Below are positions 1,966 through 18,480 of a stretch of 20,189 nucleotides of DNA, one piece after another. Numbering within the stretch: the first letter of the stretch is position 1; every line of letters starts with the position of its first letter. The position numbers and the translations under genes were made by a program. The notes under the pieces are model-generated. The model did no database searches and had not been told where the DNA came from. It worked only from the letters and a program-made list of their open reading frames with translations. This stretch comes from a virus: the IMG/VR virus record IMGVR_UViG_3300025498_000023, positions 1 to 20,189 of that record. The stretch is one strand, 5' to 3'.

Positions 1966-4900
1966 ATGCAATTTTCACTTACATCATTGAAATATCAAGA
2001 CATTAGACAACAAATCATAAAGCACTTGAACGCTAATAATCCATATGCTATCAGTAATGGTGGACAGTACGATTTTAGTTCTGCTAACCTAAGTATCTTC
2101 ATAGATTCTATGGCATATATTTGTATGACTTTTGGGTATGATGTTTCCTTTGTTACTAACAATTACTTCTTAGGCACAACTGAAATCAGAGAGAATGCAG
2201 TTTCAAAAGCTAGTGAAATAGGATATACTCCTAAACGACCATATGCTTCTAGATTCGCAGGAACATTTGTATATACTGGATCAGGATTTGTTTCGGGCAA
2301 TTCTTTATCAATATATGCTCGATCACCTTTTGTAGGAAGTTTGGGTAACATATATTACAATATGCAACCGATAGTTTTAAATTATAAGAGTGCTACTGAA
2401 CTAGAAGGGGAATATCTAATCTCTCAAGGAAGTTTTAACACATACTCTGTTACTCCAACCGGGGAAGATAATTTCTTTTTTGTTATAAACAATCCAAATA
2501 TTGACCAGGAAAACTTTACTCTATATGTAATTCCTACTAATGTATATGATAGTACTCAACCATTATCGTTATATACAAACTATATCTGGACAGGAATAGA
2601 TGCATTTACAAACTTAATGAATCCAAAATCTTATTATTTACAAGAAGATGTTGTTACAGGATATCCTTTGGTTATGTTCGGTAATGCTATTTCTGGAGCT
2701 AATGTTCCAACTGATACTGATATCATAATAGTTGAATATTTTGATACAAAAGGTAGTGCTGCTAACAATGAACTATTGAATTCATTACCACCATCTACAC
2801 AAACTAGTACAAATACTCCTGTTTATGTATATTACAATACATCTTCATTAGGAATAGGAAATACATTTAGTACTGATAAGTTTAGTGTCAGCTTTCAAAA
2901 TGCATATAACAAATCTTTCGGGGGAACTGATCTCGAATCACTATCATCTATTCAAGCTAATGCTCCACGCTTCTATTCTTCCGCAGGACGGGCAGTAACT
3001 CAAGATGACTACATCTACCTACTAAGTACGTTTGTTGGCATTGGAGCTATATATGTGATCGGTGGAGATGCATTATTTCCAGGAGATCAATCTCATTTGG
3101 GAAATATCTATATTTGTCTCGTACCTACTTTTACTCCAGCAGAATTTTTAACTAACAACAGTATATATGTAACTCCTATATTTCAGTCACAAATCAAGTT
3201 GGCAGTAGAAGATCATCCTATCATCTCTACAAAAAGATTTTTCTATAAACCAACATACATTCTTATAAACGCTATTCCTACTATAGAAATAGCACAGACA
3301 CTTACTACAGCAGATAAAAATAGTATCAGTAATCAGGTAACACAATTACTGACTACATATTTTGAAACTACATTTGATGCTTTAGGTGTTCCTTTTAGAT
3401 CATCTAAGCTGAATACTGCTATAGACAATTTGTTGTATGTAGAGTCTTCATCGATAGCTCTGGATTATAGTTTTGTTATTAACAACAACACAATAGCAGG
3501 AATGTCAACAGGTGTTGATAATTTCCTATATCTACCTATCAAAAATATAAAAGATAGCAATGGTAATGTAACAGGAACAACAAATTTTGTTCGTACTAAT
3601 AGTAAAAATATTGAAACTATCTACGATACTTTTAACTGGTCTATCTTAAAGGATTCGTTTGATTCATTGTCAGTATCGAATCAAGCAGTATTTAAGAGTA
3701 ATCTTTCGTTGTTAAATGCATACCAAAAAGATTTACCTGCAAACGAATGTACAATTTACAGCAAAGAAGGACTAATCAATATTGATAGTTTTGATAGATA
3801 TCTTTATAACGATGACATTATCACAATCGAGATAGCAAACTTTAACTATGTAGATAATCAGATAGTAACGTATAATGCTATACCGTTTACTGATCAATTT
3901 GGAAATATAGATTCATTAGAGATTTCTGTTTTAAACAACATCATAACTCTATATTTCTCATATCTTGTTAACAATATACAAACATTAAAAGATGTTGGTA
4001 CGTTGACATATAGTAATGGTAAATTTGTTGTTACTGTATCCAATACACAACAAGCAAATCTTCAACAATATTTCGGCATAGATGAGAACTTTTACTTTTA
4101 TAATTATGAAACTACACCGTTCAATGTTGTAGCAAATTCACTTTCAAATTTTTCTATCAATATTAAGACTGCTCAGAATGTATTTACAAATTTGAATTTG
4201 AAATCTAGCAAAGATATTTTTGATGTAATCATTACAAACGGAGTACATAAAGCAACAGCTTTAGAAAGTTTTACTTTTACGGCAGTTGGTAGTGATCCTA
4301 TTCCTACATTTTATAATATTAGTTCAGGCAGTATTGTAATAGGAGATATAGAAAATAGTCACTTAGCTTTGAATTATGATCCGTTTAAAGGATTTTTGAA
4401 TGATGAGTTTGATTACTCTGCAATCAATCTATCTACTTTAACTATAGGAGATTACTATATAGTATCTAGTAACTTCAATGTTACTACATTAGGCAATACT
4501 GTTTACTATTTCAAAGGAACTATATTATATTATAACGGAGCAGCATTAGCAATATCTACTGTTAAAGAAACTTTATCGTCTGCATCAGATATTACTTTAA
4601 ACACGGTTTACTCTCAAAACCAATTGTTTACTGATGCTAGTACATCACCATATTATAGAATTTATACTGGTGGAGATGTAACTAATTTGAGTAATTTTCC
4701 TTTACTGACAGATTTGATATATGCTAATAATGTTTATGGAGTTTCTGTAGATGGTTCGCAATTATTACCAACTCCTCTTACAGACGGAACAATGATAAAG
4801 ATAGTAATGAATTCTACTTTATATCCTACAGGAATAGAAATATACTATCCTCAAACAACAAATTCTAAAATAAACACATTGTACAATTGGGACTTGACAC

Positions 4901-6039
4901 CAAATAGTTCAACTATTGTTTATGATGGCGATCTTATTCTTTATAAAGATACAGGAATTCCTAGTACAAGTTATTGGGTTTTGATTACTAATCTCAATGG
5001 TGTAGCAGGAAGAGCAAGAGTTCTAGATAATATTGGTAATGCTTATAAATTTAAACAAATAGAATCGTTAGATGAAATGGCCCCATATCTATATCAAATT
5101 TATCAGATTGCTGGTAATGTTCCTATATTAATAGATACTAATCATCTATCTTTGTTTCCTACATTACCTCCGAATAACATTTTGAATGTTGGAGATTATC
5201 TTATTTGTACAGATGCAACAGCAAATCTTTGGGAAATCTTCAATGATGATTACTTTGATTTTTATATTGATGCTGTAAATGCTAATTCTACTTTCCCGGT
5301 TAGACTGTTAGTAGGAGATATGTTTACGGTAAAACTTCCTGGTACTCCGTCCAATACAAATTTTGGTGGGGAGACAGGTTCTGTTTACTATGCAGATGGA
5401 GACAAAATAATATATGAAGGAAACAATGAATGGGAAAAGTTTACCAGTACTAATTTGCCAGCAATCGCTAATCGTACTAATATTGCCAACATAGGAGATT
5501 TAGTAACAATAACTGATATTGGAAATTTCCAAAATGATACTTCTAAACTAAACGTTCCGTTATATGATTCTAATATGCAATTTAGTTATTTTGATACTCT
5601 AATCTTTACTAATACTGGTAGTACTGGAAATATGTGGATAAAAGTTAATCCTATAAATATTTACAATACTATCACAAATACATTTGATACTGATCCTAAT
5701 AGAGCAGAACTAAATGATTTAGGTTATAATTCTGATTTGAGATTATCTCAAACAGGTAATTATAACTATACTATATATCTAAATGACAAATATAACGGAG
5801 TAACTATAGGACAGTTAAATTACAATACAGGATTGTTAACATTGAAACTTATAATACCAGAAATTTTGAATGAACTTACAACCAATCCAAAAGGAGCATT
5901 GTCAAATATTTTTGACGTATCAAATTATAGTGATCAGCAAATGGATATTATTACTATGATTCCTAATGGTACAGATGATTTTGATACACTATTCGATCAA
6001 TACATCATAGGCAAAGTAGAACAGGTGGTTTTTAACTAA
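1966..6039 (+). CDS. 6: gp6-like baseplate wedge protein, about twice the usual length
   Basis: A 1357-residue protein; T4 gp6 has 660. gp6 dimers form the inner ring of the wedge and drive baseplate expansion. The N-terminus has the gp6 pattern (SIFIDSMAYICMTFGYDVSF, then the TTEIRENAVSKASEIGYTPKR stretch at about 67-87). The Baseplate_J-type core has APRFYSSAGRAVTQDDY at about 330-347, followed by an Ile-Gly-Gly motif. A family-like C-terminal motif (QLNYNTGLLTL, about 1282-1292) closes the protein. Between roughly 560 and 1230 lies material absent from T4 gp6. It includes several Gly-Asp modules (near 826, 986, 1074, 1117 and 1177) ending in aromatic residues such as NEWEKF, like modules found in phage fibres. 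The AAGGA site overlaps the previous stop. The gene ends in TAATG, overlapping the next start. Confidence 0.85.
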   Translation: MQFSLTSLKYQDIRQQIIKHLNANNPYAISNGGQYDFSSANLSIFIDSMAYICMTFGYDVSFVTNNYFLGTTEIRENAVSKASEIGYTPKRPYASRFAGTFVYTGSGFVSGNSLSIYARSPFVGSLGNIYYNMQPIVLNYKSATELEGEYLISQGSFNTYSVTPTGEDNFFFVINNPNIDQENFTLYVIPTNVYDSTQPLSLYTNYIWTGIDAFTNLMNPKSYYLQEDVVTGYPLVMFGNAISGANVPTDTDIIIVEYFDTKGSAANNELLNSLPPSTQTSTNTPVYVYYNTSSLGIGNTFSTDKFSVSFQNAYNKSFGGTDLESLSSIQANAPRFYSSAGRAVTQDDYIYLLSTFVGIGAIYVIGGDALFPGDQSHLGNIYICLVPTFTPAEFLTNNSIYVTPIFQSQIKLAVEDHPIISTKRFFYKPTYILINAIPTIEIAQTLTTADKNSISNQVTQLLTTYFETTFDALGVPFRSSKLNTAIDNLLYVESSSIALDYSFVINNNTIAGMSTGVDNFLYLPIKNIKDSNGNVTGTTNFVRTNSKNIETIYDTFNWSILKDSFDSLSVSNQAVFKSNLSLLNAYQKDLPANECTIYSKEGLINIDSFDRYLYNDDIITIEIANFNYVDNQIVTYNAIPFTDQFGNIDSLEISVLNNIITLYFSYLVNNIQTLKDVGTLTYSNGKFVVTVSNTQQANLQQYFGIDENFYFYNYETTPFNVVANSLSNFSINIKTAQNVFTNLNLKSSKDIFDVIITNGVHKATALESFTFTAVGSDPIPTFYNISSGSIVIGDIENSHLALNYDPFKGFLNDEFDYSAINLSTLTIGDYYIVSSNFNVTTLGNTVYYFKGTILYYNGAALAISTVKETLSSASDITLNTVYSQNQLFTDASTSPYYRIYTGGDVTNLSNFPLLTDLIYANNVYGVSVDGSQLLPTPLTDGTMIKIVMNSTLYPTGIEIYYPQTTNSKINTLYNWDLTPNSSTIVYDGDLILYKDTGIPSTSYWVLITNLNGVAGRARVLDNIGNAYKFKQIESLDEMAPYLYQIYQIAGNVPILIDTNHLSLFPTLPPNNILNVGDYLICTDATANLWEIFNDDYFDFYIDAVNANSTFPVRLLVGDMFTVKLPGTPSNTNFGGETGSVYYADGDKIIYEGNNEWEKFTSTNLPAIANRTNIANIGDLVTITDIGNFQNDTSKLNVPLYDSNMQFSYFDTLIFTNTGSTGNMWIKVNPINIYNTITNTFDTDPNRAELNDLGYNSDLRLSQTGNYNYTIYLNDKYNGVTIGQLNYNTGLLTLKLIIPEILNELTTNPKGALSNIFDVSNYSDQQMDIITMIPNGTDDFDTLFDQYIIGKVEQVVFN

Positions 6040-6815
6040 TGATAATAGAATGTATTTCTCAAGCTAAGAATACAATAAGTGCTATATTCTATAACAACGG
6101 AACTATAGTTACTCCCTCTAGTTATGTGTTATCAGACGCTTTTAACAAAGCTCAACCATCATTTCTAGACGAACCTTTAGAATTGGTTATGGCTGATCCA
6201 ACAGTAAACAAAATAGATATCATTATTCATTTTCCTAACAACATATTTTTTCAGGGATTGAACTATGATTTCATAGCATCTACTATTCCAAAAGTAGTCT
6301 TGAGTATGTCATATGATGGAATATCCTGGAAAGAGTTTCCATATTTTACGCTTCCTGCTGGATTGACTAGTACCGATCCTCCAACAATGCAAGTTATAAA
6401 TATGTTAAAGGATAAATTGATAAAGCAGATAGACGGTTTCAATATGATATATGATACTTTTATTCCTATTGTATTGTTATCATTAACTCCTCCACAACGT
6501 ATAATAGCAAACAGAATAATATCTTTACTGACTCAAAAGAATTATGGATACTTATGGACTGAGAATGGAGCTATAATAAACTTATTCAATGAATTCAACT
6601 TTATAAAATTAACACTAACAGATTTTGTTGTAAGTCCAGTACCATTATCATTGAATACCTTGACAGTATCAGCAGCAGTTGTTATAGATAATATTTCATA
6701 TATAGATTATTCTACATTCAATGATAATCTTTTTAAGTATAGATTTTTTGCAGATTATCCTTTTATACCATCTATCTGTAATACTATGTTGCAGATGATC
6801 AATACAGCATCATAA
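6039..6815 (+). CDS. structural protein of unknown function in the baseplate operon
   Basis: A 258-residue protein whose ATG shares one base with the gp6-like stop codon (TAATG), with AGGTGG about 12 bases upstream. This arrangement usually means coupled translation and a matched dose with the wedge protein. The N-terminal half is predicted beta-rich, and the middle (about 115-185) helical with repeated Ile and Leu. There is no transmembrane or signal segment. I do not recognise the family. Its place between the gp6-like and gp8-like genes is where T4 carries gene 7, so it could supply part of a divided gp7. That is inference from order only. Confidence 0.7.
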   Translation: MIIECISQAKNTISAIFYNNGTIVTPSSYVLSDAFNKAQPSFLDEPLELVMADPTVNKIDIIIHFPNNIFFQGLNYDFIASTIPKVVLSMSYDGISWKEFPYFTLPAGLTSTDPPTMQVINMLKDKLIKQIDGFNMIYDTFIPIVLLSLTPPQRIIANRIISLLTQKNYGYLWTENGAIINLFNEFNFIKLTLTDFVVSPVPLSLNTLTVSAAVVIDNISYIDYSTFNDNLFKYRFFADYPFIPSICNTMLQMINTAS

Positions 6816-6826
6816 CGAGATAATAT

Positions 6827-7651
6827 ATGCCAGTAGTAGAAGTAACACTTATATCAGGACATTCTCGTATTCAACACCCTATAACTACTCAAGTTATTAG
6901 AGGTACTTCTGCTATACTTAATGGTCCTGTTGATTTGTTCAATCCATTGTATAGATTGAATCAACTAGGTCAAGTTTTAAACTTTGCAAGTGTATTAGCA
7001 AATGCTTCTACTCAATATAATTATGGATTTACATCAGTTGCTGATGGAATAACTGTATCACAAGATATCAAAACAAAACTACTAGAGTTATATTTTACTC
7101 ATTACCTGAATAATTATACAGAATTTCAAAAATATATAGATATTCATTCAACCAATCCTGAAGTATTGAACAATACTAAATTGTATCTGTTGAAAAATTC
7201 TATAAGAATTTCTGCCGCTAAAGGTGTAAAACAAGGAATGCAAAAGATTTTAGAATTGTTTGCTTCTAATATTGGAAATTTTATTTTTGACATTCAATCT
7301 TCGCCGTATAATACAAATTTTGTATATAGAATAACTACTAATCTTCCTAAATATTATTGGACAAATATTCTCAGACCGATAGTTCATCCTTGCTCCTGGT
7401 ATGATGAATATGTATATGTTGACATAAATTCTTCTTTGCCTAATATCAATGTTATACCTATACAAAATAGAAATTTTTACTTTAGAATAAAACAGAAAAT
7501 TGAATTAAAAACTGACATATTATCATATACTTACTTCAATAATGATCCTTCAAGTATATTTTATACCGTTGTTGTTCCTCCACCATCATCAATAACAACA
7601 ACAAAAACACAAATAGGTATTGGAAATATTACTCTACCAGCAATAATATAA
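6827..7651 (+). CDS. baseplate-region protein with a C-terminal TQxG repeat, candidate gp7 part
   Basis: A 274-residue protein in the wedge operon. A helical middle (about 78-150) includes LLKNSIRISAAKGVKQGMQK. It is followed by a motif rich in aromatics, YYWTNILRPIVHPCSWYDEY (about 183-202). A His-Pro followed by aromatics is seen in wedge and tail-tip proteins of other myoviruses, but I cannot assign a family from it. The last 17 residues (KTQIGIGNITLPAII) match the repeat unit found many times in the next protein, suggesting that the two bind the same partner or each other. The ribosome binding site is weak (CGAGA). Position between gp6-like and gp8-like genes makes a gp7 role possible but unproven. 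Confidence 0.7.
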   Translation: MPVVEVTLISGHSRIQHPITTQVIRGTSAILNGPVDLFNPLYRLNQLGQVLNFASVLANASTQYNYGFTSVADGITVSQDIKTKLLELYFTHYLNNYTEFQKYIDIHSTNPEVLNNTKLYLLKNSIRISAAKGVKQGMQKILELFASNIGNFIFDIQSSPYNTNFVYRITTNLPKYYWTNILRPIVHPCSWYDEYVYVDINSSLPNINVIPIQNRNFYFRIKQKIELKTDILSYTYFNNDPSSIFYTVVVPPPSSITTTKTQIGIGNITLPAII

Positions 7652-7659
7652 GGAATATT

Positions 7660-9225
7660 ATGAGCTTTTTTTGTACTACAGATATGAATGGTCCGTGGGG
7701 AATAGCTTCTCACGGAGCTTATTTTTATGTAGCTAATATATCAGGTGGTAATGTTACACGATATGATATAGCAACAGGAGACGAAAATTCTTCAGGATTC
7801 CTTTGTTCTGCTGATAATACTTTTTATGGAATAGCTATAGATTCTTCATACATTTATATTTCTAATGGGGATAATACAGTATCAAGATATGACTTAGCAA
7901 CAGGAACTGAAAATAGTTCTGGATTCTCTTGTGCGTTTGACTTAAGAAGTGGGCCTTATGGTATAGCTATAGACTCTTCATATATTTATGTTGCTAATTA
8001 TGTTAGTAATACTGTAACAAGATATGACATAGCAACAGGAACAGAAAATTCTTCTGGATTTTCTTGCACTACTGATCTAGTAGGATCGATAGGAATAACT
8101 ATACATGGTTCTTATATCTATATTGCCGATAATCTCAACGATACAATAACTAGATATGATAAAGCTACAGGAACTGAAAATTCTTCTGGATTCTCTTGTA
8201 CTACCAGTTTTTCTGGTCCTGTTGGAATAGCTATAAACGATTCGTATATTTATGTTACCAATATTGATAATTATACAGTAACAAGATATGATCTAGCAAC
8301 AGGGACTGAAAACTCTTCTGGATTCGTTTGTTCTGCTGATCTGAATTCGCCTACTGGAATATTTATAGATTCTTCTTATATTTATGTCGGTGATAATGGT
8401 AGTAGTGTTGTAACAAGATATAATATAACAACAGGAAATGAAGATATTGGTGGTTTCTTTTGTCATGTAGATATAAATGGTCCTTATGCACTAGCTAGAT
8501 ATTCTTCATATATCTATGTTGCCAATGATGGCAGTACTTCAGTAACAAGATATGATGCAGCAACAGGACTTGAAAACTCATCTGGATTTTCTTGTACTAC
8601 ATCTATAAACAATTCCTATGGAATAGCTATAAACGATTCATATATTTATGTTGCCGACACAACTAACGAACTAATAAAAAGATTTGACTTAGCTACAGGA
8701 GATGAAAATTCTTCTGGATTCTCTTGTGCGTCTTTGGCCCCATATGGAATAGCAATAGATTCTTTGTATATTTATGTTGTTAATAATACGTATAATACAA
8801 TATCAAGATATGATATAGCAACAGGAACTGAAAATAGTAGTGGTTTCCTTTGTAATACAGACATGAATAATTCTATAGGAATAGCTGTAGATTCTTTGTA
8901 TATTTATGTTACCAACAGTACTAATATAGTAACAAGATATGATTTAGCAACAGGAAATGAAAACTCTTCAGGATTCTCTTGTACGGTTGATATACAGTAT
9001 CCTTTTAATATAGCGGTAAACGATTCGTATATGTATGTTGTTGATAGTTTTAGCAACTCTGTAACAAGATACGATAAAGCAACAGGAACCGAAAATACTT
9101 CTGGATTCTCTCTTAGTACTGATCCAATGGAACCATTTGCAATGGCTATAGATGCTTCATATATTTATCTTACTGGTAACAATTCAGTACTAAGATATCA
9201 TTTAGATACAGGAGCAGTAGCTATT
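7660..9225 (+). repeat. twelve tandem propeller-coding repeats of about 130 bp
   Basis: Each unit encodes one blade, and the DNA is similar enough that short runs such as ACAAGATATGA and GCAACAGGAA recur in nearly every copy. Such repeats can gain or lose copies by recombination. The same blade type is encoded again at 16162-17850 in the tail fibre. Confidence 0.85.
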
Positions 9226-10092
9226 GATAATTCTTCTACTACTATTGTTACTCAAATAGGTATTGCTACTATAGCTGTCAATACAACAACTAGAACACAA
9301 AATGGTATGTCATGTATTCTTGATATAGTTTCACCAAACCAAATTGAATCTTTTATGTCTACTGCTTATTACGGAATAGCTCCATGTCAATCATCTTCAT
9401 TTGATAATTTCAATCATGAATTTGAATTTGGATTTAAGTATAGTTCATATTTTGCACATATGGATTCTGCGGCATTGTTAGCACATATCATGACAACTGC
9501 TACCCTGGATGTTATCTATTTCGATAATGGCGAAGGAAATTATAGATTTGCTGCAAAATGTAATGTATTAGGATTTATCCATAAATATAAGTTTGATGTT
9601 TATATTGCTGCACAACGATACTTAACTTTTACATCTTCATCACCTTTTGTAAATTTTAAGATACCTTACGCTTTGAATTTGAATGAAATAGGAATCATAG
9701 CAACTGTATATTTAGATGATGATACAAGCGAAATGTTGCCAATATATGGAAATACTTCTTTCCAAAATCAAATTCAATATGGTATGGCTGATATTCTAAA
9801 GACAACAACACAGACTCAATTAGGAAATTCGTTTGTTGTATATACAAGAATACAGACTCAAATAGGAATATCTAATATTATAGAACCTATTATACAGACT
9901 CAATTAGGAATGGGTGATATTGCAGGAATAACAACACAAACTCAACCAGGAATGTCTAACATATTTGGTACTCAGACTCAATCGGGAATAGCTGATATAG
10001 AAAAAACTATATTACGAACTCAATCAGGAATGGGCGATCTAGAAAAAATAACAATACGAACTCAATCAGGAATGTCTGATATAACAGTATAA
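7660..10092 (+). CDS. virion protein with twelve beta-propeller repeats and a TQxG tail
   Basis: An 810-residue protein. Residues 1 to about 520 are twelve repeats of about 43 residues in NHL/YVTN style, each with Gly-Ile-Ala, a YIYVAN strand, T-V-T-R-Y-D, a Thr-Gly turn and SSGFSC. Eleven of twelve carry a cysteine at the same place. Repeats 6 and 12 end irregularly, which fits two six-bladed propellers. Residues about 528-560 have two TQxG units, about 560-705 form an unrecognised globular domain, and 706-810 are at least seven further TQxG units of about 14 residues. AAGGA precedes the ATG. It lies between wedge genes, so it is probably on the baseplate, where a propeller might contact a receptor or sugar. 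NHL propellers usually mediate binding, not catalysis, and no catalytic motif is visible. Confidence 0.85.
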   Translation: MSFFCTTDMNGPWGIASHGAYFYVANISGGNVTRYDIATGDENSSGFLCSADNTFYGIAIDSSYIYISNGDNTVSRYDLATGTENSSGFSCAFDLRSGPYGIAIDSSYIYVANYVSNTVTRYDIATGTENSSGFSCTTDLVGSIGITIHGSYIYIADNLNDTITRYDKATGTENSSGFSCTTSFSGPVGIAINDSYIYVTNIDNYTVTRYDLATGTENSSGFVCSADLNSPTGIFIDSSYIYVGDNGSSVVTRYNITTGNEDIGGFFCHVDINGPYALARYSSYIYVANDGSTSVTRYDAATGLENSSGFSCTTSINNSYGIAINDSYIYVADTTNELIKRFDLATGDENSSGFSCASLAPYGIAIDSLYIYVVNNTYNTISRYDIATGTENSSGFLCNTDMNNSIGIAVDSLYIYVTNSTNIVTRYDLATGNENSSGFSCTVDIQYPFNIAVNDSYMYVVDSFSNSVTRYDKATGTENTSGFSLSTDPMEPFAMAIDASYIYLTGNNSVLRYHLDTGAVAIDNSSTTIVTQIGIATIAVNTTTRTQNGMSCILDIVSPNQIESFMSTAYYGIAPCQSSSFDNFNHEFEFGFKYSSYFAHMDSAALLAHIMTTATLDVIYFDNGEGNYRFAAKCNVLGFIHKYKFDVYIAAQRYLTFTSSSPFVNFKIPYALNLNEIGIIATVYLDDDTSEMLPIYGNTSFQNQIQYGMADILKTTTQTQLGNSFVVYTRIQTQIGISNIIEPIIQTQLGMGDIAGITTQTQPGMSNIFGTQTQSGIADIEKTILRTQSGMGDLEKITIRTQSGMSDITV
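9781..10089 (+). repeat. tandem repeats of about 42 bp encoding TQxGMxDI units
   Basis: The C-terminus of the propeller protein is built of units such as QTQLGMGDIAGITT and RTQSGMGDLEKITI. Most are exactly 14 residues long, with one of 12. At least seven clear units and one worn unit are present. Isolated units occur earlier in the same protein (about 9235-9330) and at the very end of the preceding protein (about 7600-7648). Confidence 0.8.
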
Positions 10093-11933: not shown

Positions 11934-11962
11934 TTGACTTTTGAATGGCCTTATGGTATTAT
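11934..11962 (+). promoter_or_regulatory. sigma-70 promoter for the N-terminal ligase gene
   Basis: TTGACT (11934-11939), a 17-base spacer, and TATTAT (11957-11962) make a near-consensus housekeeping promoter. Transcription would begin at about 11969, 29 bases before the start codon. The -10 box lies in the spacer of a perfect inverted repeat. This would allow early expression of ligase independent of the surrounding late genes. Confidence 0.75.
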
Positions 11963-11978
11963 ACATCATAAGGCCATT
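11944..11978. repeat. perfect 12-bp inverted repeat flanking the -10 box
   Basis: AATGGCCTTATG (11944-11955) and CATAAGGCCATT (11967-11978) are exact reverse complements separated by 11 bases that contain TATTAT. The arms cover the promoter spacer and the start site, a natural place for a repressor. A transcript reading through from the gp8-like gene would form a 12-bp hairpin here, but one starting at this promoter would lack the left arm. There is no T-tract after it, so a simple terminator is unlikely. Confidence 0.85.
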
Positions 11979-11997
11979 TCACTTTAAAGGAGAGCAA

Positions 11998-13074
11998 ATG
12001 AATCTGAATGAAAAGATGGAACTCGCAAGAAAGTATAACAAAGCATATCGTACTGGAAATGAACTGGTTTCCGATCCTGAATATGATTTGCTCCTGAAAG
12101 ACATTGAACGTCATTTTGCTTGTACTGTAAGTGCTGATACGTTTGAAGATTTTAAGAAAACCCTCATGGATATTCCTGGAGAAGTCAAATCCAATTATGT
12201 TCTCGGAAGTCTGACCAAAATAAAATTCGAAGATTACGAAGACCTTTATAAATGGATCAAGAAAGAAAATATCAATTCTCTTTTCATTTCCGAGAAGCTC
12301 GATGGTTGCAGTTATGAAGCTAACTATCGGTACGGCGAATACGTTTCCTGTGCTTCCAAAGGTGATGGAGACGAAGGAACCGATTGGACAGAAAAAGGCC
12401 GTATCATCCTTCCTCAAACAATTGCCAACAAAGCACCGATTTTCGATATACGTGGCGAATTTTCGCTAGTCGGAGATACTTACAAAGAGTTGGGATACAA
12501 AACCCGTAGAGCAGGAACTGTCGGCATCATGAATAGAGATTATTTTTCAGAAGAATTAGCATATGTCAAAGCATTTGCTTATCAAATTCTTTCTGGTGAT
12601 GATCCTATCAACATTCAATTTGATAATTTAGCATGTCTTGGTTTCACTACTCCGAACTATACCATGAGACGAAAAGAACATATGGTTTCTCTTTTTCTTC
12701 ATCACGATCTGAAAAAAATATATCTGGATTGGAAAGCTGCTGCTGACTATGAAATCGATGGTATCGTCATTTCCGAAATCAACTGGAAGAATGAGAACGA
12801 TCAATTCCTTCCTAAGAAAAAAGTTGCATTCAAAGTGAATTCAGAAGGTGTTGCGGCAATTGTTGTTGATATAGAATGGACAATTAGCAAAGGAAGATTA
12901 TTAAAACCTGTTCTAATAATAAACCCCGTAATTATTGATGGAGTAACTGTTAGTAGAGTAACCGCACACAATGCAAAATATGTACAAGACAATCGCATTA
13001 CTATAGGTAAAAAAATTTACATAGTAAGGTCTGGAGAAGTTATTCCGTATATAATTGGTGTCGAACAATCGTAA
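11998..13074 (+). CDS. ligA: NAD+-dependent DNA ligase, N-terminal fragment (Ia, adenylation, OB fold)
   Basis: A 358-residue protein equal to the front part of a bacterial-type LigA, which seals nicks using NAD+. Domain Ia, which binds NMN, is at about 1-45 (LVSDPEYDLLL). The nucleophile that takes AMP is Lys100 in EKLDG. Further motifs are KGDGDEGTDWTEKG (about 121-134), IRGEF (151-155), YEIDGIVIS and KKKVAFKV. An OB fold follows, from about 283 to RSGEVIP near the end. The zinc finger, HhH region and BRCT domain are missing here and are encoded at 13775-14554. The ATG at 11998 has AAGGAGAG upstream and fits the family start. The last 35 bases overlap the antisense endonuclease. The fragment ends right after the OB fold, so it probably works only together with its partner. 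Confidence 0.92.
   Translation: MNLNEKMELARKYNKAYRTGNELVSDPEYDLLLKDIERHFACTVSADTFEDFKKTLMDIPGEVKSNYVLGSLTKIKFEDYEDLYKWIKKENINSLFISEKLDGCSYEANYRYGEYVSCASKGDGDEGTDWTEKGRIILPQTIANKAPIFDIRGEFSLVGDTYKELGYKTRRAGTVGIMNRDYFSEELAYVKAFAYQILSGDDPINIQFDNLACLGFTTPNYTMRRKEHMVSLFLHHDLKKIYLDWKAAADYEIDGIVISEINWKNENDQFLPKKKVAFKVNSEGVAAIVVDIEWTISKGRLLKPVLIINPVIIDGVTVSRVTAHNAKYVQDNRITIGKKIYIVRSGEVIPYIIGVEQS
13030..13050 (+). repeat. left copy of the OB-fold end flanking the endonuclease
   Basis: This stretch encodes SGEVIPY, the conserved R-x-G-[DE]-V-[IV]-P motif that ends the OB fold of NAD+ ligases. A related stretch at 13721-13741 encodes TGDVVPK in the frame of the C-terminal ligase fragment. I count 12 identical bases of 18 over the six shared codons. 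The endonuclease stop codon (13040-13042) lies inside this copy. Confidence 0.75.
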
Positions 13075-13705
13075 ATCCTTTATGGTGTTTTCTATTACCA
13101 GAAACCACACAACTCATTTTGGATTGTCTAAGGTTATGTTTTTTACAAAATTCATTTAACCCTACAATAATTTCTTTTGTTCCGTTAGGAAAAGTAACTT
13201 CATATGATAATTTTTGTTTTTCATCTCCTTTTTGTTTGGCAAGTTTCCATTCAGGAGTTTTTGTTAAATATCTTATAGACTCCAAATGTTTTTGTTTAGT
13301 ATCAGGATTTGCCATAGAGTTATTATCTCCACAAAAATTCTTCATGACTATTCTTAAATTTTTTAAAGCTTTTTCTTTAACAAAAGGATCGATAGTAGGT
13401 CCATACTCACCACCTTTTGTTAAATTGTATCCTTTGCCAGTAGAAAAATGACTTTCATAATATGCAATAGTTTCTATTTCTTTCATACATAATTCTTCTT
13501 TACTTGAACACTCACATACAATTTCCCAAGTAAAGTTATTCCATCCATATTTTCTGATAGCATTGTGAATATATGATTTAGATTTTTTGTGTTTAGATGC
13601 ACTTTTATGACTTTGCATTCTTCGATGTAACGAAGAAATAGTTTGACCAATATAAACTTTACTATTGACAATATTAGTAATTTGGTATATAATACCGTAT
13701 ATCAT
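13040..13705 (-). CDS. GIY-YIG homing endonuclease splitting the ligase gene
   Basis: A 221-residue protein on the opposite strand, the only minus-strand gene here. The GIY-YIG nuclease domain occupies about 1-100: GIIYQITN (4-11), KVYIGQT (16-22), the catalytic Arg at 28 or 29, a metal-binding Glu at 76, and GKGYNLTKGG with Asn94. All key positions are present, so the enzyme should be active. The C-terminal part (about 155-221) has a pattern like NUMOD/IENR-type DNA-binding modules (NEFCKKHNL then SGNRKHHKGFTI). Such genes spread by cutting a gene copy that lacks them. AAAGGA lies about eight bases before the start and a late promoter 38 bases before it. Its 3' end overlaps the N-terminal ligase gene antisense. 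Confidence 0.9.
   Translation of the reverse strand: MIYGIIYQITNIVNSKVYIGQTISSLHRRMQSHKSASKHKKSKSYIHNAIRKYGWNNFTWEIVCECSSKEELCMKEIETIAYYESHFSTGKGYNLTKGGEYGPTIDPFVKEKALKNLRIVMKNFCGDNNSMANPDTKQKHLESIRYLTKTPEWKLAKQKGDEKQKLSYEVTFPNGTKEIIVGLNEFCKKHNLRQSKMSCVVSGNRKHHKGFTIVRHQLYTE
13665..13693 (+). promoter_or_regulatory. full-consensus sigma-70 promoter for the C-terminal ligase gene
   Basis: TTGACA (13665-13670), exactly 17 bases, then TATAAT (13688-13693): every base matches consensus. It reads rightward out of the first codons of the antisense endonuclease gene, toward the ligase start at 13775, with transcription starting at about 13700. The mobile gene therefore appears to bring in a promoter that serves the severed half of its host gene. 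Confidence 0.85.
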
Positions 13706-13774
13706 AAGATGTTCCTTTATACCGGAGATGTAGTTCCAAAGTTATTTATAAAACATTTCAAAAAGGAGAAACAA
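13706..13774 (+). other. residual ligase coding sequence upstream of the new start
   Basis: The frame of the C-terminal ligase gene stays open to the left of its probable start. From 13706 it reads KMFLYTGDVVPKLF and on to the Met at 13775. TGDVVPK matches the OB-fold ending of LigA, so these bases are probably the original ligase sequence left beside the insertion. They now act as leader DNA for both the ligase half and the endonuclease, and hold a late promoter on the minus strand. Confidence 0.7.
13743..13750 (-). promoter_or_regulatory. T4-type late promoter for the homing endonuclease
   Basis: The plus strand reads TATTTATA, so the minus strand carries an exact TATAAATA directed at the endonuclease, 37 bases before its start codon. 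Late transcription would start near 13737. T4 endonucleases such as I-TevI are likewise restricted to late expression. A chance match is possible, but the position and orientation suit a promoter. Confidence 0.6.
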
Positions 13775-14554
13775 ATGAACAAGTTTGAATTTGTACCTAC
13801 AACATGTCCCGAATGTGGAACCGGATTGAAATGGTATGGTGTAGAACTTCAGTGTAGTAATCTTGATTGTGGTGAAATCAAACGAGTAGAGCATTTCATC
13901 AAACAAAGCGATATCGAAAACGTTTCTGAAAAGAGACTTGCTAGTTGGGGCATTTATACCTTTGATGATCTGTTAAATTGGAATGCCGATTCTAGTTCCA
14001 AATCACAAATAGAATTCTATAACGAACTCTTGACAAAAGTATTTCATGTGTCTCCTGTACAGATTATGAGAAACTTTTCTTATGATGGTTTAGGACAAAC
14101 TCTTTTTGATAAAGTATTCAGTTATACTTGCAACAGCAATCTTAATAATATGAATATTCTTTTTAACGAAAAACTTAATGACTATTGTTTACCTGAAGGT
14201 ATTGGTACTCGAACAATTGAAAAAGCATCTTCTGATTGGAAAAAGAATTGGGATATTTGCTTAGAAATTACTACCGATCCCCGATATGAATATATCGAAA
14301 AAGAAGTAGCTCCTAAAGCAGAAACTAGCAACAAGCTGGCAGGTAAAACCTTTCTTCTTACTGGTACTCTTTCAAGAGGTAGAACAGAAATTGAAAAGGA
14401 AATAGTATCGTTAGGTGGAAAGATCGCATCAAGCGTTTCTAAAAACCTGGACTATCTTTTAGTTGGAGATAAGGCAGGAAGCAAGTTGGACAAAGCAAGA
14501 AAAATTCCTAGCATAACAATCCTCACCGAAGCTGATTATTCAACCCTGATCTAA
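13775..14554 (+). CDS. ligA: NAD+-dependent DNA ligase, C-terminal fragment (zinc finger, HhH, BRCT)
   Basis: A 259-residue protein matching the back part of LigA. A Cys4 zinc finger at 11-32 (CPEC, then Cys27 and Cys32) opens the protein. The middle (about 40-175) corresponds to the HhH DNA-binding region, with LPEGIGTRTIEKA recognisable and the rest divergent. A BRCT domain ends it (about 186-259: GKTFLLTGTLSRGRTEIE, VSKNLDYLLVGDKAGSKLDK). I prefer ATG 13775 because AAGGAG lies six bases before it. In-frame ATGs at 13643 and 13709 have no such site, and the first lies inside the endonuclease gene. It has no nucleotidyl transfer domain, so it must act with the fragment at 11998-13074 to give DNA-binding and sealing. 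A terminator follows. Confidence 0.9.
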   Translation: MNKFEFVPTTCPECGTGLKWYGVELQCSNLDCGEIKRVEHFIKQSDIENVSEKRLASWGIYTFDDLLNWNADSSSKSQIEFYNELLTKVFHVSPVQIMRNFSYDGLGQTLFDKVFSYTCNSNLNNMNILFNEKLNDYCLPEGIGTRTIEKASSDWKKNWDICLEITTDPRYEYIEKEVAPKAETSNKLAGKTFLLTGTLSRGRTEIEKEIVSLGGKIASSVSKNLDYLLVGDKAGSKLDKARKIPSITILTEADYSTLI

Positions 14555-14643: not shown

Positions 14644-17600
14644 ATGTCACTTACAACAGATGCAAATATCAATGATAGATTTTTGATTCCACCAGGAAGT
14701 TCGATTACAAATATTAAGAATACTTTCAATGATTTTGTAACTCAAATACAGAATTCGTCCTTCCTAAATATTCTTAAGAATTCTAAATTGAAAGAACATT
14801 TTAACGGAAATCCTTCTCCGTATGCGTGGAATATCGATCTAGGTGTTACAATAGATACTTCTGGTACAGAGACTGTGGCAAGATTCACTGGTTTGAATCA
14901 AGAAATAGCACAACCTATTACTGAAGTTCTAACCCCTCTCGATCAATATTTGCTACCTTCTACAGAATATCTTGCTATTTTTGATATTTCTCCAGATCAT
15001 GATTGTGAAGTCGGTGTGTCGTATGGCGCAGGATTAGTAAATCTTTTAGGATCGGGAGCAGTATCAGGTTCTGATTACAATGCATTACATTCTACTGTAT
15101 ACGGAGGAAGTTCTGGTATTACTTATTTTGTATTTAAAACTGCTGAAGATTTTTCAGGAGTTACTTTCTATATCAAAAATCTTACAGCAGGAGCTAATGC
15201 AATAACTTTACATAAACTTTCCTTGGTAGAAGGTACTCTTAACCTAATGGATTCGATAGAATCTAACTTATTCTTAGATCATATTAGATATAATGATTCT
15301 AGTTTAAAATGGGAGTATACAAACGATGGTATTACTTGGCATCCATTTTTAGAAGAGCTAAATCCTTCTTCAACATATGTTGCTTCGTATACTCCTATCC
15401 ACGATCAAATTCCTATTCTTTCTGGTACAGGCGGAACACAACTTGCTGCTGGTATTTTACCTATAGGAAATGGATATCTATCTCCTTTAGTAGATTTAAC
15501 TATAGGAGGTACAGGTGCTATCGATCTTAACACTTGTACTATTGCTGGTGTAATATATACTACTGATGGTTCAGTAAGCATACCAAATTCACCATATGAT
15601 ATTTACAATGGCACTGCATGGTGGACAGGAGATATATTCGGTAACGGTTGTCAATTTGCTGCTACTATAGACGGAAATTTATATAGCAGAACATATAATA
15701 CAGCAAATGCATCTCTCTGGAGTCCGTGGAATCTTCTTACTAATACTAACACTCTTACTGAAAATTTATTAATAAACGGAAATATGGATGTATGGAGAAG
15801 AGGAGGAGTAGCATCATCTTTCTTATTGCCTAATAACGTATCATCATATACTGCTGATAGATGGAAAGTATCTACTGCTGCTCATTATACCGATAATGTA
15901 AATATTTTTAAAGATATACTACAGCCTGTGGATGGAGCTTATTTAGTTCCAGGTTCTAGAAATGCTTTCAATATGTATCATCCTCAACTAACTGCTGATG
16001 TAACTTCAAGTACCAGAACAGCGATAGAACAAAGATTGGAAGACGTTACTAGATTTATAGGACAAGATATAACACTTTCATTTTGGGCGAATTCAGATAC
16101 CGATATGATAGGAACAGTATATGTAGATGTAAAGCCAGCAGGAGAGGCAAACGTAGCACCATTCATTTGTAATTCTGGAATGAACACTCCAAGATCAATT
16201 GCTATGGATGCTGATTATATATATGTTGCTAATGCTGGTACTCCTAATATAACAAGATATGATATAGATACTGGAACACTGGATGATACTTCTGGAGGAT
16301 CATTTGTTTGTAATACTCATTTCAGTGATATATATGGAATAGCTGTAGACAATTCATATATCTATGTTGTTAATCATGGTGCTCCTAATGTGACTAGATA
16401 CAATAAAGCAACAGGCGCATATGATATGACTACTGGAGGAGCATTTAGTTGTTCTGGTGGTGGTGACGATGCTTATATAGCTTTAGATGCTTCTTACATT
16501 TATATAACTAATGGTAATGCTGATACAGTAACAAGATACGATATAGCAACAGGAACAGCACATCCTTCAGGATTTTCGTGTACTACAACTGCTGATGTAG
16601 GTGGAATAGCTGTAGACAGTACTTATATTTACATCGCAAATATAAGTAATAATACAGTAACCAGATTCACCAAATCATCAGGAGCAGCACATCCTAGTGG
16701 ATTTTCTTGTACTGTTGGTATGAGCGATCCTATAGGAATTTCTGTTGATGCTTCTTATATCTATGTGTCTAATTTCAATGGTAATAATGTAACTAAATAT
16801 AACATAGCAAACGGTACACAAGTTACTTCTCCTACTTTTGCTTGTATTACAGCAATGAACAAACCAACAGGAAATTTAGTAACTGCTAGTTACATATATG
16901 TATTACAAAGTTCGAATACTGGAGCTAATAAAAATTCAGTAACAAGATATGACATTGCAACAGGAGTCTTTGATAGTGCTGGTATACCTATAGCATCTAC
17001 AGTAGGATTCAATTGTAATGCTGGAATGAAACATCCTAACGGACTTTTAAGTTATGGTGGTTATCTTTATGTAACTAATAGAGATACTAATACTGTAACA
17101 AGATATATTAAACTAAACGGTGTTGAAGATAACACTACTGGAGGAGCATTTCTTTGTAATACTGGAATGTCTAAACCAGAGGATGTTACAACTGACGGTA
17201 CATACTTATATGTAGTAAATTATACTGGTCATGTCAGTAGACATAATTTAGTAACAGGTGCATTAGATATGACTACAGGAGGAGCATTTAGTTGTAGTAC
17301 TGGTGGATGGTATGCTTATGGTATTGATACTGACGGTACATATTTGTATATCAGTTCTTGGATAGATCAAGAAAGTACTTTTGTCAATAAGATAAAAAGA
17401 TTTGATATAGCAACAGGTGCAGTAAATGCTACAGGATTTAATTGTAATACTGGATTTGGTCCTGCTGGAATAGCTATATATGGTGCTTTTATCTATGTTA
17501 CTAATGCTTTTCCAGATACCAATACATTAACAAGATATGATCTAGCAACAGGCACAAGAAATACTTCTGGCGGATTTTTATGTTCTACTCATATGCATTG

Positions 17601-18480
17601 GCCTCGAGGTGTTGTTACTGATGGTACATATTTATATGTAGTAAATGTTACTGCCAATACTGTTACTAGATATGATATAGCAACAGGAATTGAAAATACA
17701 AATGGTTTTTTATGTAATACACATATGAAAAGACCAGTAAACATTGCAATAGATACTAATTTTATATATATTACTAACTATGCTACTAATACAGTTACTC
17801 GTTATGGTATTGGAACAGGATCATATGATACTTCAGGTACTCCTATTCCACAAATTTCTATACATGATTATGAACAAGATATAGAATTTATACCTGGAGT
17901 ATGGCAGCAATATTCTGTTACTTTTAGTATAGATGTTTCTGCTGGAATATTTTCTATCGATCCTACTTCTCCTGACTTTGTTGCTATAGGTATCATTCCT
18001 AATAAGTCAATCTTAAGTGGGACACCTGAGTATAATTTTAGTTTTACTCAGGCTCAATTAGAATATGGAACAACAGCATCTATTTTTGGAGTCAGACCAA
18101 TAACTGAAGAAGAACTTTTATGTCAAAGATTTTTTCAGACTTCATATCTAAAAGACATAACTCCTGGAACTGCTGTTCAACAAAGAAATGGTGCTGTCAA
18201 TTGGTTTAATGGAACTTTTGGAACAACCCATTGCATAATTGGAAATATACAACTTGCTCCTAGAATGAGATATACACCAACTGTAAATTTTTATTCTCCT
18301 AATGTTGGTACTATCGGAAGTATAGATAAAAATTCTGCCTATACTACTCCAACTGCTCTTGCTACACCTACTATATGGTGTTCTGATGGAGCTATTACAG
18401 AAATAGATTCTGCTACTATTACTTCTGGAGAAGGTTCAGTATCTTATCAGTTCCATTATACAGCAGATGCGGAGTTATAA
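14644..18480 (+). CDS. tail-fibre protein with two propellers inserted in a carbohydrate-binding-like domain
   Basis: A 1278-residue protein expected at the tip of the tail apparatus, where it would bind the host surface. In order: an N-terminal region with a jelly-roll-like part (about 1-230); a pyocin-knob-like domain (about 292-365: DLNTCTIAGVIYTT to WSPWNLL); and the start of a common fibre domain (NLLINGNMDVWRRGG, 374-388; TADRW; LSFWANSD near 480). Twelve propeller repeats follow (about 507-1069). Then the same fibre domain resumes (WQQYSVTF, 1087-1094; QAQLEYGTTASIFGVRP; EEELLCQRFF, about 1156-1165). The C-terminal 110 residues are unrecognised. All twelve repeats carry a cysteine at the same place. 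It is the first gene after a late promoter, and its stop overlaps the resolvase start. The receptor is unknown. Confidence 0.88.
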   Translation: MSLTTDANINDRFLIPPGSSITNIKNTFNDFVTQIQNSSFLNILKNSKLKEHFNGNPSPYAWNIDLGVTIDTSGTETVARFTGLNQEIAQPITEVLTPLDQYLLPSTEYLAIFDISPDHDCEVGVSYGAGLVNLLGSGAVSGSDYNALHSTVYGGSSGITYFVFKTAEDFSGVTFYIKNLTAGANAITLHKLSLVEGTLNLMDSIESNLFLDHIRYNDSSLKWEYTNDGITWHPFLEELNPSSTYVASYTPIHDQIPILSGTGGTQLAAGILPIGNGYLSPLVDLTIGGTGAIDLNTCTIAGVIYTTDGSVSIPNSPYDIYNGTAWWTGDIFGNGCQFAATIDGNLYSRTYNTANASLWSPWNLLTNTNTLTENLLINGNMDVWRRGGVASSFLLPNNVSSYTADRWKVSTAAHYTDNVNIFKDILQPVDGAYLVPGSRNAFNMYHPQLTADVTSSTRTAIEQRLEDVTRFIGQDITLSFWANSDTDMIGTVYVDVKPAGEANVAPFICNSGMNTPRSIAMDADYIYVANAGTPNITRYDIDTGTLDDTSGGSFVCNTHFSDIYGIAVDNSYIYVVNHGAPNVTRYNKATGAYDMTTGGAFSCSGGGDDAYIALDASYIYITNGNADTVTRYDIATGTAHPSGFSCTTTADVGGIAVDSTYIYIANISNNTVTRFTKSSGAAHPSGFSCTVGMSDPIGISVDASYIYVSNFNGNNVTKYNIANGTQVTSPTFACITAMNKPTGNLVTASYIYVLQSSNTGANKNSVTRYDIATGVFDSAGIPIASTVGFNCNAGMKHPNGLLSYGGYLYVTNRDTNTVTRYIKLNGVEDNTTGGAFLCNTGMSKPEDVTTDGTYLYVVNYTGHVSRHNLVTGALDMTTGGAFSCSTGGWYAYGIDTDGTYLYISSWIDQESTFVNKIKRFDIATGAVNATGFNCNTGFGPAGIAIYGAFIYVTNAFPDTNTLTRYDLATGTRNTSGGFLCSTHMHWPRGVVTDGTYLYVVNVTANTVTRYDIATGIENTNGFLCNTHMKRPVNIAIDTNFIYITNYATNTVTRYGIGTGSYDTSGTPIPQISIHDYEQDIEFIPGVWQQYSVTFSIDVSAGIFSIDPTSPDFVAIGIIPNKSILSGTPEYNFSFTQAQLEYGTTASIFGVRPITEEELLCQRFFQTSYLKDITPGTAVQQRNGAVNWFNGTFGTTHCIIGNIQLAPRMRYTPTVNFYSPNVGTIGSIDKNSAYTTPTALATPTIWCSDGAITEIDSATITSGEGSVSYQFHYTADAEL
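16162..17850 (+). repeat. twelve propeller-coding repeats within the tail-fibre gene
   Basis: Units of about 43-57 codons share YIYVAN-, TRYDIATG- and FxC-type segments with the array at 7660-9225. Repeats 6 and 12 each end in a longer, similar tail (DSAGIPIAS and DTSGTPIPQ), marking a boundary after every six units. Repeats 6 and 9 carry internal insertions of several residues. Confidence 0.85.

Follow-up and report, generated by a model that had tools for sequence, protein, structure and literature searches.

The window analysed here is a stretch of 20,189 bases, the IMG/VR virus record IMGVR_UViG_3300025498_000023 from position 1 to 20,189. It encodes a single-stranded DNA-binding protein (phrog_224), baseplate wedge genes (phrog_261 and phrog_219) and a RuvC-like gene, and because baseplate genes are present it appears to derive from a contractile-tailed phage. 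A named-phage search with the window DNA and with both of its whole propeller proteins returned no match. At 11941-14554 the gene for an NAD-dependent DNA ligase is broken into two frames, which match positions 13-382 and 369-646 of phrog_3869, and an antisense ORF between these frames, at 13040-13705, reads like a GIY-YIG homing endonuclease. The features that concern us are the following:

7660-9243, plus strand: second twelve-blade propeller array, the N-terminal part of the 810-residue gene 7660-10092; homologous to and colinear with the insert listed below
14644-18480, plus strand: tail-fibre/adhesin gene, 1278 residues, with a PHROG 4492 tail fiber match
14644-15756, plus strand: N-terminal 371 residues, no PHROG match; two pieces without Pfam match
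15757-16149, plus strand: left half of a CBM4/9-like jelly roll, residues ~372-502 (NLLINGN, TADRW, SFWA), profile positions 1-113 of 231
16150-16962, plus strand: inserted ring 1, six predicted propeller blades, residues ~503-773, from the AlphaFold model and NHL alignment
16963-16995, plus strand: inter-ring linker, residues ~774-784 (DSAGIPIAS and following), placed by a longer blade 6 and the ring limits
16996-17820, plus strand: inserted ring 2, six predicted propeller blades, residues ~785-1059, from the AlphaFold model and NHL alignment
17833-18141, plus strand: right half of the CBM4/9-like jelly roll, residues ~1064-1166 (WQQYSVTF, QLEYG, LCQRFF), profile positions 132-231
18142-18480, plus strand: C-terminal domain common to uninterrupted relatives, with an acidic-EL type terminus (...YTADAEL) and a phrog_4492 match

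The preliminary description of this DNA had proposed that the motifs of a fibre domain, from NLLINGN to LCQRxF, run in their usual order on either side of a large insertion. All of them are found in that order in the product of 14644-18480: ENLLINGN begins at residue 373, TADRW at 403, LSFWA at 478, WQQYSVTF at 1087, QLEYG at 1138 and LCQRFF at 1159; the outer domain spans residues ~373-1166 around the insert. The residues ahead of it look, by eye, like a jelly-roll-like region followed by a short knob-like region. With the insert removed, the joined flanks (227 residues) match the PHROG 4492 tail fiber profile in a single stretch (residues 2-227, profile positions 792-1000, E 1.8e-32), whereas the intact protein matches it in two separate ones. 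When a profile derived from 38 relatives that lack the insert was run on the intact gene, it too matched in two parts that complement each other: positions 1-113 align at residues 373-495 and positions 132-231 at residues 1086-1165, leaving 572 surplus residues in between. Had two separate, complete domains come to share this motif order by coincidence, left and right pieces would be expected to score apart in the intact protein, as they do. However, the pieces occupy complementary profile positions, merge into one continuous match when joined and align together to a single CBM4-2 in the structural model, and we regard two separate domains as vanishingly improbable. At the C-terminus, the phrog_4492 match covers residues 1059-1278 against profile positions 901-1096 of 1096, reaching both ends, and a similar C-terminus is present in 212 of 254 closed relative ORFs.

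Flanks and propellers were modelled apart, since the right half was misplaced in every mix tried when flank and propeller rows were combined in one MAFFT alignment; no single model is good for jelly roll and propellers together, and the parts were folded separately. AlphaFold2 prediction of residues 366-1175 with the 38 uninterrupted relatives gave good flanks, with many ten-residue blocks at pLDDT 80-90, and poor propellers, for an overall pLDDT of 52.7. The Foldseek list of this whole-region model was set aside (rmsd above 30 A) and the VIA-align comparison of its flanks was kept; VIA-align lists are second looks at Foldseek matches, and the absence of other folds from them carries no meaning. 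Model residues 7..777, reaching across the insert, align with the whole CBM4-2 of R. marinus xylanase (2y6j; Z 13.5, rmsd 2.8, 161 of 167 residues). The list for the flanks also includes phage proteins, namely tailspike 4 of CBA120 and baseplate proteins of E217 and Pa193. By profile, the family matches the CBM4-2 of T. maritima laminarinase Lam16A (1gui, E 5.7e-6), and PF02018 (CBM_4_9) is matched by 10 of the 39 family members scanned (best 8.5e-6); the window's own joined domain gave no CBM match in Pfam. Profile searches and model together confirm that ORF 14644-18480 holds one predicted CBM4/9-like domain interrupted by a propeller insert. The earlier proposal that the outer domain is a single domain despite the insertion thus came through the check that might have overturned it, as the flanks form one domain both in the profile search, where they were joined, and in the model, and its label of a carbohydrate-binding-like tail-fibre domain can be narrowed to CBM4/9-like.

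Uninterrupted copies of this domain are abundant. IMG/VR was scanned with the domain profile and also with its left half only, because a full-domain search could select against inserts. Together the scans matched 304 ORFs, comprising 279 full single-piece domains, 16 with small gaps and seven left halves close to where their contig stops; an insert above 40 residues was absent from all 304, the left-half-only scan included. The 254 distinct complete domains (243 non-redundant) have a median length of 215 residues and a maximum of 249, and all are without the insert. The SFW-to-W spacing is 605 residues in the 14644-18480 protein, while in the 169 relatives for which it was measured the median is 37 and no value exceeds 62, which bears out the suggestion that this stretch is normally a short loop. 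Among named phages the domain occurs in 363 records, and in 358 of them one place covers at least 80% of it; among the carriers are tail fibre proteins from phages of Rhizobium, Stenotrophomonas, Synechococcus, Pseudomonas and Vibrio. One partial match in a named phage, H101, turned out to be an ordinary uninterrupted domain. The exact split architecture is found in one metagenomic record alone, that of the window.

The insert itself holds twelve propeller repeats between SFWA and WQQY, at residues ~510-1070, most of them 43-49 residues long, with blade 6 reaching 57. It occupies about residues 503-1063 (nucleotides ~16150-17832), and the extent first given for it, 16078-17910, does contain the insert within limits that are too wide: the adjoining hairpin strands (residues ~490-502 and ~1064-1086) form part of the outer domain. 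Modelled alone with AlphaFold (residues 503-1070, four related rows), the insert reached a pLDDT of 72.8 and folded into twelve blades with three long strands each. In VIA-align, ring 1 (model residues 2-271, protein 504-773) aligns with the whole NHL ring 7qrv at Z 29.5 (2.1 A, 240 residues) and ring 2 (model 282-556, protein 784-1058) with the NHL domain of TRIM2, 7b96, at Z 30.4 (2.5 A, 245 residues). The double propeller of twelve repeats put forward from the sequence is therefore seen in the model as two six-bladed NHL-like rings. Pfam NHL (PF01436) gave no match in either propeller protein of the window at E values up to 1, and the Pfam models that score on these proteins instead are Lactonase, PQQ_2 and SGL; we therefore call the rings NHL-like and do not assign them to the NHL family.

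The Lactonase match, above its cut-off on the blades of ring 2 (E 1.3e-8), raises the question of whether the propellers are lactonase-, lyase- or depolymerase-like enzymes that modify the host surface. A propeller fold is reportedly found in the phage K1F tailspike with endosialidase activity, which would supply a precedent. Yet the Lactonase match lies at the level of the repeats, and in structure the propellers come closest to NHL rings, which are non-catalytic, and to designed Pizza proteins. An enzymatic role is, in our judgement, quite improbable.

Several features bear on how the cassette was built. As read from the sequence, a short F-x-C strand opens each ring and could act as the outer strand of that ring's last blade, and the inter-ring segment DSAGIPIAS resembles the exit sequence DTSGTPIPQ after ring 2. 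Blades six positions apart resemble each other above expectation, with p values of 0.027 in the insert and 0.044 in the second gene; these statistics are weak, and the likeness suggests a duplicated ring. The inserted cassette thus probably arose by ring duplication.

The second twelve-blade array lies in gene 7660-10092, directly after baseplate-type genes, and is 46% identical to the insert. Blade i of one array resembles blade i of the other beyond chance (p 0.0023), and this colinearity points to a common ancestor that already had twelve blades, from which both arrays probably descend. After the array, the product of 7660-10092 continues with repeats of the type TQxG(M/I)xxI, and the same short motif occurs at the C-terminus encoded by the preceding gene, 6827-7651 (TKTQIGIGNI). 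Within the propellers, cysteine is confined to the outer strands of the blades, one in each: the insert has 12 (residues 509-1024; 16168-17715) and the second array 11 (7672-8982).

A homologous array on the same contig, and a split architecture known from a single metagenomic contig, could also mean that the gene is an assembly chimera of two genes from this or another phage. Against this, the longest exact DNA common to both arrays is 25 nt, the GC content of the insert (0.334) is like that of its flanks (0.34-0.35), the frame is open through 1278 codons, and nesting of the same type is seen in the two further contigs described below. The short maximum identity and the like GC argue against misassembly, and also against a very recent copy; a chimera seems very improbable indeed.

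The position of the insert suggests what it may affect. In the closest uninterrupted subfamily, the place of insertion is a hairpin such as FxQxFGSGGSxS. When T. maritima CBM4-2 is aligned to R. marinus CBM4-2 variants (2y64), the matching hairpin holds GNQSFDEYGRLH, residues ~106-117, including F110. In the CBM4-2 binding site residue 110 is critical, with residue 112 close by (PMC2783032). Going by this alignment, the loop opened by the insert corresponds to the CBM4-2 loop of residues ~106-118, which carries ligand-binding residue 110, and since the two hairpins would be homologous, the insert probably stands at the rim of the putative cleft or replaces it.

Searches for other propellers of this kind were made in several ways. 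A first propeller-profile scan yielded no relatives, a two-blade profile scan yielded three NHL-type loci, and a scan of bacterial genomes for the blades found no relative. A scan for NHL blades returned 21 loci, mostly phage structural-type proteins as judged by eye, and two of these show nesting; in the other NHL proteins read from the scan, the array is an ordinary domain or was not resolved. The first nested case, L262 (IMGVR_UViG_3300005573_000072, ORF from nt 3762, 1245 residues), has two tandem units that we name, by eye, jelly roll plus LamG-like. Three NHL blades (residues ~412-552) lie inside its first LamG-like domain, and the second is without blades. The joined flanks of the first domain match the second with z 21 against shuffles, compared with 9.4 and 15.2 for the single flanks; on this evidence the second LamG-like domain is an empty site within the same protein. 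Three blades are too few for a closed ring, which would call for chains to associate. In the second case, L094 (IMGVR_UViG_3300037042_004068, 4318-7518), twelve NHL blades follow directly after positions 1-63 of 151 of Laminin_G_3, a match with E 0.00029 that is below Pfam's cut-off. The contig ends after blade 12, any second LamG half would lie beyond that end, and relatives of this protein are without its LamG and propeller parts. It is possible, though we hold this tentatively and rather doubt it, that propeller cassettes of 3, 12 and 12 blades are a recurrent plug-in for loops of unrelated sugar-binding beta-sandwiches, CBM4-like and LamG-like, at least once at a ligand-site loop, giving a one-step receptor change that the old fold survives.

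For the window, we consider it likely that the CBM4/9-like jelly roll of a tail-fibre adhesin took a double NHL-like ring cassette into a hairpin loop that borders the cleft where it presumably binds glycans, and that the rings are a putative receptor-recognition module. The cassette would stem from ring duplication and have an ancestry in common with the twelve blades encoded by gene 7660-10092. The N-terminal outer strand of each ring might close that ring and bring the ring ends close together, which would let the jelly roll still fold. Displayed sideways from the adhesin, the rings would offer a new surface for recognising a receptor of the host envelope, whether glycan or protein, and this surface could replace the original cleft or add to it. 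Display geometry, receptor binding, receptor change and fit with a trimer are points that we infer.

Alternatively, the insert might be structural, a rigid spacer or a contact surface for other fibre or baseplate proteins with no part in receptor binding. The propeller of the SU10 nozzle, which lines a channel and splits the platform domain, is structural (PMC9509320), and the second twelve-blade protein of this phage adjoins baseplate genes. However, the carrier belongs to a family of tail fibres in which a CBM4-like domain is present, and since every other copy does without the insert, the fibre itself does not depend on it; moreover, identity between this phage's two arrays has fallen to 46%. 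A structural role is in our view unlikely, and receptor recognition by the inserted rings is the reading we prefer.

Gain of a receptor by phages is usually explained via point change, tip swapping or whole-domain exchange. The nested double propeller, set against the hundreds of phages in which this domain is uninterrupted, provides a before-and-after pair for testing whether specificity changes when a closed module is inserted, and the internal empty-site copy of L262 adds to this comparison. The insertion site also marks a natural insertion-tolerant position in a widespread fibre domain. Our findings suggest that an adhesin already in use by a phage can take up a large new recognition module and stay intact. 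If cassettes of this kind are indeed recurrent, the receptor could change in one step with the old fold kept.

The design was put forward at the outset as one not seen described before. In the open-access literature searched, we found neither a phage CBM with a propeller nested in it nor a double propeller in a CBM4-like binding-site loop; the SU10 nozzle and the evolved Dits are partial precedents. Phage receptor-binding proteins of the PHROG 4492 / CBM_4_9 kind, CBM_4_9 being among the listed binding domains of such proteins (PMC9230537), resemble the 14644-18480 product in jelly roll, motif order, C-terminal domain and acidic-EL terminus and, unlike it, are without the insert in 254 distinct complete copies. 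Closest in the type of repeat are the Nitratiruptor phages NrS-2 and NrS-3, which have NHL repeats in their tail fibres, NrS-3 being without three of the six of NrS-2 (PMC9723563). They and the IMG/VR NHL proteins are like our case in placing NHL-type arrays of varying blade count in phage tail fibres. The available part of the Nitratiruptor description mentions no insertion of the NHL domain into another one, whereas the window's tail fibre has two rings within a CBM4-like domain, and their sequence falls outside Pfam NHL. The fibres of eCIS carry beta-propeller lectins such as eBAP3 (PMC12923769), in which, in the part of that work available, propellers are combined with collagen-like shafts and nesting in a CBM is not described. 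Splitting of a host domain has its nearest parallel in the SU10 / T7-type nozzle. In both cases a propeller cuts a different domain of the tail protein in two, the platform domain of SU10 being separated into N- and C-terminal parts (PMC9509320), but the nozzle is a structural channel protein with one seven-bladed ring and no adhesin. Finally, the evolved Dits of siphophages, which carry a CBM inserted into a loop of the galectin domain (PMC9692632), present a purely functional analogy, since in both cases a recognition module occupies a beta-sandwich loop of a phage adhesion device. The roles are reversed, however: in the evolved Dit it is the CBM that has been inserted, whereas in the window's tail fibre a CBM-like domain receives a double propeller of ~560 residues.
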